Shown here: positions 14,075-38,788 of the stretch, one piece after another
Numbering within the stretch: the stretch's first letter is position 1
Layout of the letters: every line of letters begins with the position of its first letter
Assembly: GCF_018889955.1 (NCBI RefSeq)
Contig: NZ_CP076545.1
Location: 1,426,001 to 1,490,000 of the forward strand
Length of the DNA: 64,000 nt
Reading direction: 5' to 3'
From: Collinsella sp. zg1085
GTDB taxonomy: Bacteria > Actinomycetota > Coriobacteriia > Coriobacteriales > Coriobacteriaceae
Position numbers and translations under genes: made by a program
Notes under the pieces: model-generated
The model's database searches: none
Told to the model about the DNA's origin: nothing
Seen by the model: the letters and a program-made list of their open reading frames with translations, nothing else

Positions 14075-15388
14075 ATGGACAACATCTTCAAGCTCACCGA
14101 GCGTGGGTCAAATGTCAGCACGGAGGCCCGTGCTGGCCTGACAACCTTCCTTGCGATGGCCTACATCATCGCAGTGAATCCCTCGCTCTTAGTAGCTGCG
14201 GGTATTCCGATGGTTGCGGCCGTAACGGCTACCTGTCTTGGCGCAGGTATCATGACAATTTTGATGGGTGTTTTTTCTAACCGACCGCTTGCCTGTGCTT
14301 CTGGCATGGGAGTAAACGCTATTGTGGCGTTTACCTTAACCGCCGCGGCAGGCAACGACTGGCATGCGGCAAACGCAGTCATCTTTGTTGAAGGCATTGC
14401 TATTTTGCTTCTCGTTTTGTGCGGGCTTCGCGAGGCAATCATGGATGCCATTCCGGTTTCTTTGCGCCACGCCATCTCAGTAGGTCTAGGCCTGTTTATT
14501 GCCATGATTGGTCTTAAAAATGGTGGAGTTATTGTTGCTAATGAGGCAACCATGGTGGCGCTGGGCAACGTTAGTGACCCTATCTTTATCATGGCGCTGA
14601 TTTCGATTATCGCAACTGTCTCGCTCTATGCTTTTAAGGTACCGGGCGCCCTTCTTGGCGGTATCATTATTTCTGTTTTAGCAGGCATTCCTTTAGGCGT
14701 TACGCACATGCCCGAAGGCCTTGTATCTGGTCTTGACTTTAGCTCTTTTGGTGCACCGTTTTTAACCGATGAAGCCGGCACTATGGGCATTGTAAAAGTT
14801 CTTACCAACCCAACGCTTATTGTGTTTGCTTTCTCGCTTATGATGTCTGACTTCTTTGACACCATGGGTACTGCTATGGCTGTTGCCAAGCAGGGCGACT
14901 TCTTAACCGAGGACGGCAACGTAAAAGATATTAAGCCTATTTTGATTGTGGACTCAGCAGCGGCCGCCGTTGGTGGCTTTGTTGGCGCGTCCTCAATTAC
15001 AACCTTCATTGAGTCATCGTCAGGTGCTGCGGACGGCGGACGTTCTGGTTTATCGTCAATCGTTGTTGGTATTTTGTTTATTCTTGCAGCATTTTTCTCA
15101 CCGCTGATTGCCGTCATTCACTCAGCCGCCACCTGCGGTGCACTGGTCTTTGTTGGCTTCCTTATGATGAGCGAGGTGCACGACATCGATTGGTCTGACT
15201 TGCTCGAGGGTTTCCCCGCGTTTGCGATTGCTGCAGGCATTCCGTTTACGTATTCAATTTCTGATGGTATTGGCTTTGGCTTCTTGTCCTTTGTACTGGT
15301 TGCCTCGCTGACTGGTCAGATTAAGCGCGTGAAGCCGCTGATGTGGGTGGCAACACTTGCGTTTTTGGTGTACTTCCTCATCGTGTAA
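14075..15388 (+). CDS. Hypoxanthine/guanine permease (AzgA-like NCS2)
   Basis: Proton-coupled purine base uptake. The 437-residue protein begins MDNIFKLTERGSNVSTEARAG and has TFLAMAYIIAVNPS, the hallmark of the AzgA/PbuG branch, followed by GMGVNAIVAFT and DFFDTMGTAMAVAKQ. ATG 14075 follows AAGGAG closely. I looked for a purine riboswitch in the 100-bp leader and did not find one. The gene likely works with deoD and the nucleoside genes but is a separate unit; the hairpin locus begins 80 bp downstream. Confidence 0.92.
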   Translation: MDNIFKLTERGSNVSTEARAGLTTFLAMAYIIAVNPSLLVAAGIPMVAAVTATCLGAGIMTILMGVFSNRPLACASGMGVNAIVAFTLTAAAGNDWHAANAVIFVEGIAILLLVLCGLREAIMDAIPVSLRHAISVGLGLFIAMIGLKNGGVIVANEATMVALGNVSDPIFIMALISIIATVSLYAFKVPGALLGGIIISVLAGIPLGVTHMPEGLVSGLDFSSFGAPFLTDEAGTMGIVKVLTNPTLIVFAFSLMMSDFFDTMGTAMAVAKQGDFLTEDGNVKDIKPILIVDSAAAAVGGFVGASSITTFIESSSGAADGGRSGLSSIVVGILFILAAFFSPLIAVIHSAATCGALVFVGFLMMSEVHDIDWSDLLEGFPAFAIAAGIPFTYSISDGIGFGFLSFVLVASLTGQIKRVKPLMWVATLAFLVYFLIV

Positions 15389-15467
15389 TACGCCGCTGCT
15401 TATTATCCTGGAGGCGGGGTGTGGGGCGAGCTAGCCTTGCAGCTACTGTTTAAGTTGCAAACGTATG

Positions 15468-15533
15468 GGGTGGCATAGTCTTTTCACGGGAACTGCGCTA
15501 CGCGAAAGTTCCCTTAGAAAAGCTATGCCACCC
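15468..15533. repeat. Palindromic hairpin element 1 (66 nt)
   Basis: GGGTGGCATAG plus CTTTTC pairs with GAAAAG plus CTATGCCACCC, one base bulged; inside an internal loop comes GGGAACT/AGTTCCC, then a G/RA asymmetric loop and a CGC-TAC-GCG-type tip. The layout matches hairpins 2 and 3, with covarying pairs. Confidence 0.85.
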
Positions 15534-15563
15534 TTATGCTACCGCACTATCTCACCAGCTTTG

Positions 15564-15660
15564 TACTGTAGTTCTGTCTCAACGGGACGAATGATTGCGC
15601 TCTCCGAATGTGCTTCGCAGAATTCTCCGAGCACAATCATTCGTCCCCTTTCTTACAGTA
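15564..15660. repeat. Palindromic hairpin element 2 (64-nt core, 97 nt with outer stem)
   Basis: The core spans 15584-15647: GGGACGAATGATTG pairs with CAATCATTCGTCCC, then GCTC/GAGC, a symmetric TCC/TCC internal loop, GAAT/ATTC, a G/GA bulge and the tip TGC-TTC-GCA. An outer TACTGTA/TACAGTA pair extends it to 15564-15660. The inner 25 bases match hairpin 3 at 24 positions. Confidence 0.88.
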
Positions 15661-15854
15661 AATGCCAAACACACATGCAGTGGTCAGCTCACCTCATACT
15701 CCGCCATGTACAAGCAGCGCTTATAAGATGAAAGGATTGGGGTTGCAGCTCTTACGGGACAAAAGCGAAATGCCCACTTCAAAAGGACACTACTACTCAA
15801 AAGTCTGTCTTGAAGCGTAAACTCAGCAAAGCTGCTCGTTTCTCAACTCGAAAT

Positions 15855-15918
15855 AGACCAAGGTATTGCATTCTACGAATGTGCTACGCAGAATTCTCCG
15901 AATGCAATACCTTGGTCT
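15855..15918. repeat. Palindromic hairpin element 3 (64 nt)
   Basis: AGACCAAGGTATTGCATTC pairs perfectly with the reverse copy ending at 15918, then a TAC/TCC internal loop, GAAT/ATTC, a G/GA bulge and the tip TGC-TAC-GCA. The outer arms share no sequence with hairpin 2, yet length (64 nt), loop positions and the inner core are the same. Confidence 0.88.
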
Positions 15919-16050
15919 TTCACCTGCTTTCCGCACTTGAAGCAACCGAACACTCCAATAAAACTGTGTTCCGCGAACACTTCTCTGAAAAAAAGCTTGT
16001 TCTTCATATGCATGGGCAGATTTCAAAACACCGCTAACTTGTATAAGCTG

Positions 16051-16216
16051 TTTTGACAGAAACGGGCAATTTGGCAGTAAAACCTGACAAAAATAGGTAA
16101 TCTGGCAATAAACCCCCTATGGCACGAAAACCTACAACTCATCTACCTGCAGATTCACAAAACAACGAATAACCCACGGGGGTTCTACACTGCCAAATTG
16201 CCCATTTCTGTCAAAA
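16051..16216. repeat. Inverted-repeat-bounded element, copy A
   Basis: A 28-bp terminal inverted repeat (16051-16078 with 16189-16216, one mismatch) encloses about 110 bp; a nested AACCCCC/GGGGGTT pair lies at 16111-16117 and 16178-16184. It is collinear with copy B about 207 bp downstream. There is no transposase and no evident target-site duplication, so it is MITE-like at most. Confidence 0.82.
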
Positions 16217-16257
16217 AGGGTTGGACTAGAATCGCCCGTGCAATGCTGCTGACCAGA

Positions 16258-16424
16258 GCTTTGGCAAAAATGACCAATTTGACGGAAAAATCTGTCATTT
16301 TTGACTAATTTGGCATAAAGAGACAACTGTAGCTTTACTTGTGGCTCGTCTACCTGCGGCTTTGTATGAAAAATACTAACCCGCTGGGTTATAGAGAGTA
16401 CTTTTTCGTCATTTTTGCCAAAGC
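16258..16424. repeat. Inverted-repeat-bounded element, copy B
   Basis: A 17-bp perfect inverted repeat (GCTTTGGCAAAAATGAC at 16258-16274 and its complement at 16408-16424), extended inside by GAAAAA/TTTTTC. The interior aligns with copy A at a constant offset of 207 (for example CTCATCTACCTGC at 16138 and CTCGTCTACCTGC at 16345). Arm differences from copy A are compensated on the opposite arm. Confidence 0.82.
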
Positions 16425-16656
16425 GACAGGTGTAACTTATCGATGCGCCAATAGTGTTAGCACCCGATACGGCGTATTTGTGCTGCTATTTCGCTTTGCG
16501 GAGCAATGCCGGTATGTTAACCCAACGTGTAACGATGCATTATTGGCTTGGTGCGGCAATGTCTTGACTGAATGGAGAGTCACAGGGATTCATGAAGCAA
16601 GCAACGTTCTCACGAAATTGCAAAAATGCAGCGGCTCGCGAAGGAAATCGACCCAG

Positions 16657-16778
16657 TGTACGAATTTTTGCCACCAGCCTGTGTATAGGGGGTCTGTACA
16701 AAGGAACTTTTCAGCATTTCCGCAGAAAAGACGCTACTTTGCTAGAGTGTACTTGACCCCTTGCAAAAAATTCGTACA
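16657..16778. repeat. Long imperfect palindrome
   Basis: The outer arms TGTACGAATTTTTGC and GCAAAAAATTCGTACA enclose nested partial arms (GGGGGTC/GACCCC, GTACA/TGTAC) and a central CTTTTC/GAAAAG hairpin. The total is 122 nt. It resembles the layered arms of the other elements but shares no long sequence with them. Confidence 0.7.
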
Positions 16779-16813
16779 TTAGACGGATTTACTTCTCAAG
16801 CAAATCCGTCTAA
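16779..16813. repeat. 12-bp perfect hairpin
   Basis: TTAGACGGATTT pairs with AAATCCGTCTAA around an 11-base loop. No T run follows on either strand, so an ordinary intrinsic terminator is doubtful, although it faces the end of the EIIA gene at 17001. Confidence 0.7.
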
Positions 16814-36509: not shown

Positions 36510-36574
36510 AATCCTCCTTCTGGAGCCAGCTTGGCCCCGAACTCGTAGGGGTCCCTGGCATATGCGAGGATGAA

Positions 36575-36661
36575 GCGTCCCTACGCCGGCATTACCCGGA
36601 TCAGGTTTTGGGTCGAAGACAACAGCCTTCCTCTCAGCCGGGTTTCACCCAGCTCCCCACG
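36575..36661 (-). ncRNA. TPP riboswitch
   Basis: The minus strand shows the full THI box: GGGGAGC at the start, TGAAAC, CTGAGAGGAAG, GACCC, then CTGATCCGGGTAATGCCGGC and GTAGGGA. A hairpin with GACCCC/GGGGCC at about 36535-36563 lies between the aptamer and the AGGAGG ribosome site and is the probable expression platform, likely controlling translation start. It governs the thiamine-binding protein gene and thiXYZ. Confidence 0.96.
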
Positions 36662-36690
36662 TGCAGGTTGAGTATAGCACGCATTGAGCA

Positions 36691-38595: not shown

Positions 38596-38788
38596 ATATG
38601 CTCCCAAGGTCCGTGTTGCCCCGTGTCGGTGCGGACAACCTCAATACAGACTGCGCAGCTGCGTAGACAGCGTAGTTGCGCGCATGGTCAACCATCATAC
38701 TCTCCTCACACGCAGAACAACACCACTACCTCACACATCCCAGAATTTGTAATCATTTAGGAATAAACCACGTCCACGTCGTGCCCTC

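Follow-up and report, generated by a model that had tools for sequence, protein, structure and literature searches.

Bacterial palindromic repeats are usually described by their conserved stems. REP elements, according to two published accounts, are short palindromes of extragenic DNA whose stem is broken by irregular places; they often lie 3′ of genes and often form inverted pairs (PMC8266576, PMC3733652). These traits link the hairpins analyzed here to the REP, REPIN and BIME systems with RAYT. Unlike those, our hairpins have a conserved tip and varying arms, rarely carry GTAG or CGTC at the foot, and do not lie beside the Y1 genes inspected. Hairpin elements of sponge organelles have conserved stems and variable loops, according to one account (PMC2800124). 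With such organelle elements (RHE, DHE, GC clusters) our family shares the character of repeated palindromes thought to be mobile, but relative to the sponge elements it is the reverse: its tip is conserved and its stems vary.

Two further classes are close. Intrinsic (Rho-independent) terminators have in common with our hairpins a GC-rich stem right past the stop codon and, less clearly, a T-enriched 3′ side, and plain homologues of our hairpins occur at groEL; the difference is that our hairpins carry, instead of a loop, a conserved structured module of about 40 nt that is common to different genes and species. The composite repeat in which the hairpins are embedded in their own genome is similar to MITEs and to pneumococcal repeats of the BOX/RUP type in being non-coding, dispersed and furnished with terminal inverted repeats; it differs from them in that neither a common target duplication nor an autonomous partner was found. 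At the level of the tip, d(GCGNAGC) minihairpins and (GNA)2 motifs with sheared G·A pairs are known from in-vitro work, and the tip and the type I internal loop of our hairpins appear, from their letters, to obey the same GNA rule on the non-coding strand. Literature searches confined to open-access papers gave nothing comparable to such terminator caps.

Three hairpins and the repeat that carries them

The stretch of DNA analyzed (the window, 64,000 nt) contains three plus-strand palindromes, H1 (15468..15533), H2 (15584..15647) and H3 (15855..15918), exactly where a first-pass annotation made from the letters alone had placed them. Their surroundings are 1.6 kb without a convincing gene, from the end of a permease gene (Pfam Xan_ur_permease) to a PTS EIIA gene on the opposite strand. 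All three fold better than each of 200 dinucleotide shuffles, as DNA and as RNA and on either strand (z -6.8 to -10.0). H1 is of type II, with an AC/TTA internal loop and the tip GCTACGC at 15497-15503. H2 and H3 are of type I: the former has a TCC/TCC internal loop (15603-15605, 15626-15628) and the tip GCTTCGC at 15612-15618, the latter a TAC/TCC loop (15874-15876, 15897-15899) and the tip GCTACGC at 15883-15889. The common layout proposed for the three hairpins held on inspection. Near-identity of the H2 and H3 cores, given as 24 of 25 bases, was found as 25 of 26 shared core bases, and the pair changes on both sides between the tips of H1 and H3 (A-T/G-C, C-G/A-T, C-G/T-A) are as described. 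The hairpins are also real, but the description of their arms as perfect was too strong: in H1 a T is bulged and the internal loop is 2/3, and mismatches occur in many copies of H2 and H3.

Rfam 15 at gathering score placed no family on the hairpins of the window, where its only matches lie elsewhere on the minus strand: an aspS RNA at 38602-38681 and a TPP riboswitch at 36561-36669. Below the cut-off, eight hairpin loci gave miRNA and snoRNA models only, far under threshold.

A DNA search of the host genome (1.72 Mb, one contig), combined with a map of 12 modules on 33 stretches fetched from it, revealed that the hairpins are parts of a mosaic, non-coding dispersed repeat. Its local copy occupies 15388..16800 on the plus strand in the order A-H1-H2-A(inverted)-H3-C-D-E. 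Module A (15389..15440, plus strand), with the ends TATACGC...GCGTATA, is the outer end of the repeat and begins at the stop codon of the permease gene. An inverted copy of it, read by eye at 15685..15725 on the minus strand, completes an A...A unit, about 340 bp long, that encloses H1 and H2. The remaining modules are all on the plus strand: C (16040..16230) and D (16241..16445) are inverted-repeat elements of about 190 and 205 bp that also occur alone elsewhere in the genome, and E (16611..16800) marks the end of homology in the window copy. The order recurs entire or in part, and several copies run on into the inverted set; complete copies pass from E to inverted hairpins and A, whereas the window copy stops at E. 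The repeat thus measures 1.4 kb in the window and 2.1-2.2 kb when complete, and in four complete copies the inverted repeats at the termini span about 320-600 bp. Hairpin H1 was registered at 27 places, H2 at 22 and H3 at 23 (72 together), mostly inside the repeat.

Plus-oriented copies of module A start 0-9 nt past the stop of a frame in all seven cases, minus-oriented ones in neither of two. A stand-alone unit like A...A lies between divergent frames at 67.65-68.05 kb of the genome. Between A and H1 a variable number of degenerate tandem units resembling the left arms of H1 and H2 could be seen by eye. Modules C and D form separate families, with places that include genome positions 41251, 44593, 479995, 515398, 650008, 746883, 1402276 and others. 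At one locus (L062, G000:C1:1602014-1604250) a 197-aa acetyltransferase-like frame lies between inverted hairpin arrays in a cargo-like manner.

Sixty-two of the 72 hairpin copies were registered by script, the other ten having been dropped as they had no tip that the script could register; 1436 of their 1566 cells are Watson-Crick pairs. Mismatches read on the plus strand comprise 54 A·C and 30 G·T. This bias was rejected as proof of the functional strand because few sites drive it. Arm sets other than those of the three families are present at 1598870, 277092/277400 and 1520132. Two hairpins are hybrids with the left arm of H2 and the right arm of H3 (G000:C1:1275510-1275573 and 1297447-1297510), and therefore recombination or deletion between tips does occur. 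The hairpins at 260249 and 1649039 also resemble H2/H3 hybrids.

These data reverse one claim of the first-pass annotation, which had seen in H1-H3 a conserved structure and not copied sequence. Since the repeat neighbourhood is found many times in the host genome, H1-H3 belong there to a dispersed repeat and were copied as blocks of it. The freely varying arms that it described fare better outside this genome than within: here three arm families were copied 22-27 times, with a few others, but elsewhere arms do vary between genes and species.

As expected of a MITE, the composite has terminal inverted repeats. No target-site duplication is common to four composites and one stand-alone unit, where the longest shared end strings are 4-6 nt at approximate boundaries, and no autonomous partner of the composite was found. 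By DNA search the repeat is present in one of 39 genomes, the host's own, and plasmids and phages gave no match. The exact tip occurs in one of 43 genomes of the genus; a scan of genome_contigs for the exact core gave 4 matches, about the chance expectation by our estimate, and two patterns gave 0 matches in viral_contigs.

Covariation, distribution and tip of the hairpin family

The hairpins keep their structure while their letters change. In an alignment of 33 of the 43 distinct hairpins of the host genome (A1), 192 cells carry two-sided changes, where shuffles give 61.6. When congeners were added and fitted to the model (A4), covariation was 0.814 against 0.205. For the second family, f5, an alignment of 23 selected stretches of 64 nt, of which two were trimmed (A7), has 99.3% of cells paired, and 21 of 26 pairs are changed on both sides.

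Covariance models extended the family beyond the host genome. Model R1, made from the 33 rows with strong covariation, detected the hairpin, on different arms, in 16 of 42 congeners (E≤0.05, strict filters), and some of its matches are perfect palindromes that share the centre and have arms of 27-37 bp. R2, with the congeners added, matched 25 of 39 genomes of the genus at E≤0.01, that is, 24 of 38 congeners and the host genome itself; in the order it matched 29 of 149 genomes, belonging to seven genera and two families, f1 and f5. R3 was built from f5 only, with the host genome excluded, and matched all 13 sampled genomes of genus g13 (f5). Its 7-37 matches per g13 genome are upper bounds and not hairpin counts, since a palindrome can match on both strands; in G081 at least 17 distinct hairpin places are among the R3 matches listed. 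Against the host genome R3 gave 26 matches among the 26 candidates scored, again not a count of hairpins, with E values of 1e-8 to 1e-11 at copies of H1. In the window it matched H1 at 15469-15532 (E 2.9e-10) and H3 at 15858-15915 (E 2.4e-6), and H2 had no match at E≤1. A search of the class with strict filters gave 30 of 197 genomes, all of f1 or f5.

A conserved structure had been proposed by the first-pass annotation, and A1, A4, A7 and the return matches of R3 support one that has covarying arms and extends well beyond the three copies. The covariance-model search proposed there yielded many covarying matches in far more than three copies, with arms that stay complementary. We conclude that H1-H3 belong to a large, apparently undescribed palindrome family in two related bacterial families.

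Statistics on the tip were drawn from the best 107 of 150 rows of alignment A8, 74 of them distinct; the rows used for building R3 are among them. Of these 74 distinct hairpins of the second family (the g13 side), 69 have a TNC triloop. A 3x3 internal loop is present in 64, with TNC on the left side in 56 and on the right in 59, and its middle base can be any of the four. The H2 and H3 hairpins of the host genome have TNC on both sides of the internal loop in 30 of 34 cases. Ten of the 74 lack the 3x3 loop, eight of them being of the ACG/CTTA type, and therefore the rule given below is confined to the triloop and to type I loops. Read on the complementary, non-coding strand, each of these places is GNA, so that the triloop becomes C(GNA)G and the internal loop GNA/GNA.

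GNA loops in DNA are stabilised by sheared G·A pairs. The occurrence of GNA on the non-coding strand at the three irregular places suggests that this is the strand that folds as DNA, by way of C(GNA)G and sheared G·A pairs. Computed energy favours the GNA strand as DNA in 57 of 74 hairpins on the g13 side and 29 of 34 in the host genome, and as RNA in 56 and 27, respectively; the mean gain as DNA is small, about 0.5 kcal/mol on the g13 side and 1.6 in the host genome. The strongly sense orientation relative to the gene would also fit a transcript-level role. Scarcity of G·U pairs was considered as proof of a process at the DNA level and not relied upon, as two counts disagree on its extent: capped hairpins have 10 in 1391 pairs against 171 in 1667 of a rough control that holds many antisense frames, and the contrast shrinks to 148 in 2627 against 172 in 1698 when longer stretches are folded.

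Hairpins at gene ends and their alleles

Outside the host genome the hairpins of both families follow genes. For 39 of 49 distinct hairpins, a frame of 100 aa or more on the same strand ends 8-57 nt upstream, as against 9 of 49 with a frame within 60 nt on the opposite side, in a count made without a gene caller and with orthologues kept, where about three of the 39 frames look antisense. In the second family the usual place is 8-45 nt past the stop codon (groEL, rplX, leuS, pnp). The genes ahead of the hairpins, named by eye from their sequence, include groEL, rplX, leuS, pnp, gpmA, htpG, asnS, polA, a phosphoketolase and ABC transporters. The rplX hairpin lies inside the ribosomal (spc) operon, in the gap before rplE, which in the two species measured is 339 and 471 nt long and contains promoter-like sequence. 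At one locus downstream of rplX (L182) the intergenic stretch is filled by repeated ATACTCAAATCCGGATTTGAG-like palindromes.

The 10 nt past the hairpin are enriched in T on the sense side (0.308 versus 0.151 on the other side and 0.157 in the background, 49 hairpins). The T-tract is clear at most groEL loci and weak at leuS and after H1-H3 in the host genome; because of this weakness, terminator action of the H1-H3 copies is putative.

Six of 49 capped hairpins (L158, L162, L167, L173, L179, L182) lie within an outer inverted repeat of at least 11/12 nt, and direct repeats of at least 11/12 nt flank 2 of 49, that at leuS of G099 included; shuffles gave 0 of either. With only 2 of 49 flanked, general target-site duplication of the hairpins was rejected. 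The hairpins found 5.2-5.7 kb apart in G002, G048 and G043 were considered as ends of 5-6 kb transposons; this was also rejected, as ordinary genes lie between them in G002 and G043. At the g13 places listed, hairpins are mostly single. Four inverted pairs were inspected, in which only one member clearly follows a gene; convergent genes do not account for the inverted pairs in g13.

The groEL 3′ ends were compared in 25 species, each of which shows a GC-rich hairpin in the corresponding position. Twenty-two have a sense cap, one an inverted cap (G184) and two a plain terminator-like hairpin with the stem GAGCCCCCGGTC and a 4-nt loop (G099, G185). The 22 with a sense cap have a like stem on which the module replaces the loop, in two versions, with either a TNC/TNC or an ACG/CTTA internal loop, so both types are observed at the same locus. 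At leuS, 15 of 26 species have a sense cap, one an inverted cap (G177), three a plain hairpin and seven neither at this place, some of the seven with a hairpin further on. States were assigned by eye at both genes, and both inversions agree with the strand of the R3 matches. Only at groEL do alleles with and without the cap have stems that are clearly similar. The sister pair G092/G183 shows, by eye, a filled versus a single-copy state at leuS, and the direct repeat at leuS of G099 is 11/12 nt. On a tree of 24 genomes the state at groEL must have changed at least 8 times and the presence at leuS at least 7 times, counts which may be too high since 8 of the 21 branches are open.

Arms and module behave differently in 78 hairpins from 22 loci of 27 genomes. 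Arm similarity is 0.725 at the same locus and 0.60-0.61 at other loci; module similarity has no locus signal (0.809 at the same locus, 0.820 and 0.809 at others). Given locus-specific arms, a module that is not so, and repeated changes of state, cap and stem seem to differ in history, unless the few free sites of the module have become saturated. Concerted evolution was not detected, modules being no more alike within a genome (as high a similarity arose in 244 of 1000 shuffles of the labels). A plain explanation of the free arms, to judge from their likeness to it and from their going with the gene, is that in the second family they may be the gene's own terminator stem. The H1 of the host genome resembles the ACG/CTTA version at groEL, and H2 and H3 resemble TNC/TNC; hence both versions predate the split of the families or moved between them.

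Possible origins of the hairpins

The explanation towards which we lean is that H1-H3 are palindromic "terminator caps", a module seemingly mobile on terminator-like tips that was amplified here in a MITE-like composite. The unit is an apical module of about 40 nt, made of an inner stem, an internal loop of the TNC/TNC or the AC/TTA type, an asymmetric G/RA step, a short stem and a TNC triloop closed by C-G. It sits on top of hairpins like those of intrinsic terminators, with outer arms that go with the gene. It may enter hairpin tips, drop out of them or be exchanged between them by conversion, by way of a cruciform or of single-stranded DNA, and termination would persist because the stem is left intact. 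In the host genome, capped hairpins would have been captured in the composite and then amplified to the 72 places registered. On this account the module comes and goes on intrinsic terminators and is probably mobile; its enzyme and its function we infer, and no enzyme linked to the module was found. Of the three guesses of the first-pass annotation, a mobile palindrome fits best, a protein-binding ssDNA hairpin is conceivable, and a small-RNA family is not indicated. More tentatively, and with some doubt on our part, the module might be a mobile single-strand palindrome with the terminator loop as its target, recognised as folded DNA through GNA; it would insert, flip and leave with termination unharmed, and host terminators would be its safe sites.

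We place the family among the small palindromic repeats known from bacteria, within which its relation to terminators is unusual. With its tip fixed and its stem following the host gene, the repeat amounts to an accessory of transcription terminators, and since its presence, absence, inversion and swaps of type can be read at orthologous terminators, gain and loss can be counted between strains. If the reading of the GNA strand is true, an enzyme or a binding protein specific for folded DNA may be expected in two families of the order.

Several points speak against the cap account. No enzyme was linked to the module, target-site duplication is not general, and modules have no excess likeness within a genome. 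A module without locus signal could reflect saturation of few constrained free sites, and the sense orientation and the housekeeping genes also fit a transcript-level function. The latter leads to the strongest rival, a functional RNA element of the 3′-UTR: a protein would bind the tip on the mRNA end (for stability, processing or regulated termination), the element would be selected at housekeeping genes, and gain and loss would be regulatory turnover. Such an element would be expected in sense orientation after stop codons, at genes such as groEL, rplX, leuS, pnp, gpmA and htpG (named by eye) and in the rplX-rplE gap of the spc operon, and strong covariation also agrees with it. It is nevertheless rather unlikely in our opinion: GNA stands at the irregular places of the antisense strand and not of the mRNA, caps are inverted at groEL and leuS, presence among species is patchy, and Rfam gave no family at gathering score and only miRNA and snoRNA models far below it. 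A pure terminator role is likewise a poor fit to the inverted pairs and to the stand-alone unit between divergent frames at 67.65 kb.

A much less probable view takes the hairpins of the window for incidental palindromes of a MITE-like composite repeat and puts their likeness to hairpins elsewhere down to convergence among stable terminators. The window copy does lie plainly in a dispersed composite with long terminal inverted repeats, and in the own-genome copies H2 and H3 (80-96% identity to the window copy) are conserved much like modules C and D and no better. However, H1 is the best-kept part of the repeat, with 93-100% identity against 64-83% in the spacers x23 and x3C, and R3 matches the H1 copies of a genome that was excluded from it, as well as H1 and H3 of the window.

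REP or REPIN elements mobilised by RAYT, a Y1 transposase, are slightly less credible again. Imperfect palindromes located after genes would suit them, as would inverted pairs (for example in G042, G018, G039, G081 and G063) spaced about 70-190 bp from start to start, with many copies nonetheless single, and Y1 genes (PF01797) are present in 14 of the 18 genomes checked. Yet Y1 is absent from the hairpin carriers G000, G035 and G099 (and from G001), and none of 15 neighbourhoods, out of 32 Y1 matches, has a hairpin near the gene, the nearest being about 5 kb away with most spans covering about 2 kb on each side; in five, palindromes of another kind adjoin the gene. GTAG was found within 12 nt of the foot in 7 of 74 distinct second-family hairpins and CGTC in 7 of 74, and arms vary on a fixed tip. 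Identity with REP/RAYT was rejected on the foot tags, on the absence of Y1 from hairpin carriers and on the Y1 neighbourhoods. The RAYT-like Y1 genes at L193, L194, L195, L197 and L198 have nearby palindromes of their own (GTGCAAAAGGGACAGTC in three), which are unlike the cap hairpins.

Least credible is template switching, in which mutational correction keeps the arms of a hairpin without role complementary: one-sided changes are indeed rare in the second family (2 of 598 cells) and congeners have perfect arms of 27-37 bp, but the loops, which correction is expected to erase, are the conserved part.

Some loci show further arrangements of these palindromes. At L209 (1593-1657 and 1901-1965) two similar family hairpins with another arm set lie 308 bp apart, flanked by frames that look like surface proteins. 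At L161 (~100-210) a plain GC-rich palindrome seems to lie inside the tip of a capped hairpin, which would be the reverse nesting.
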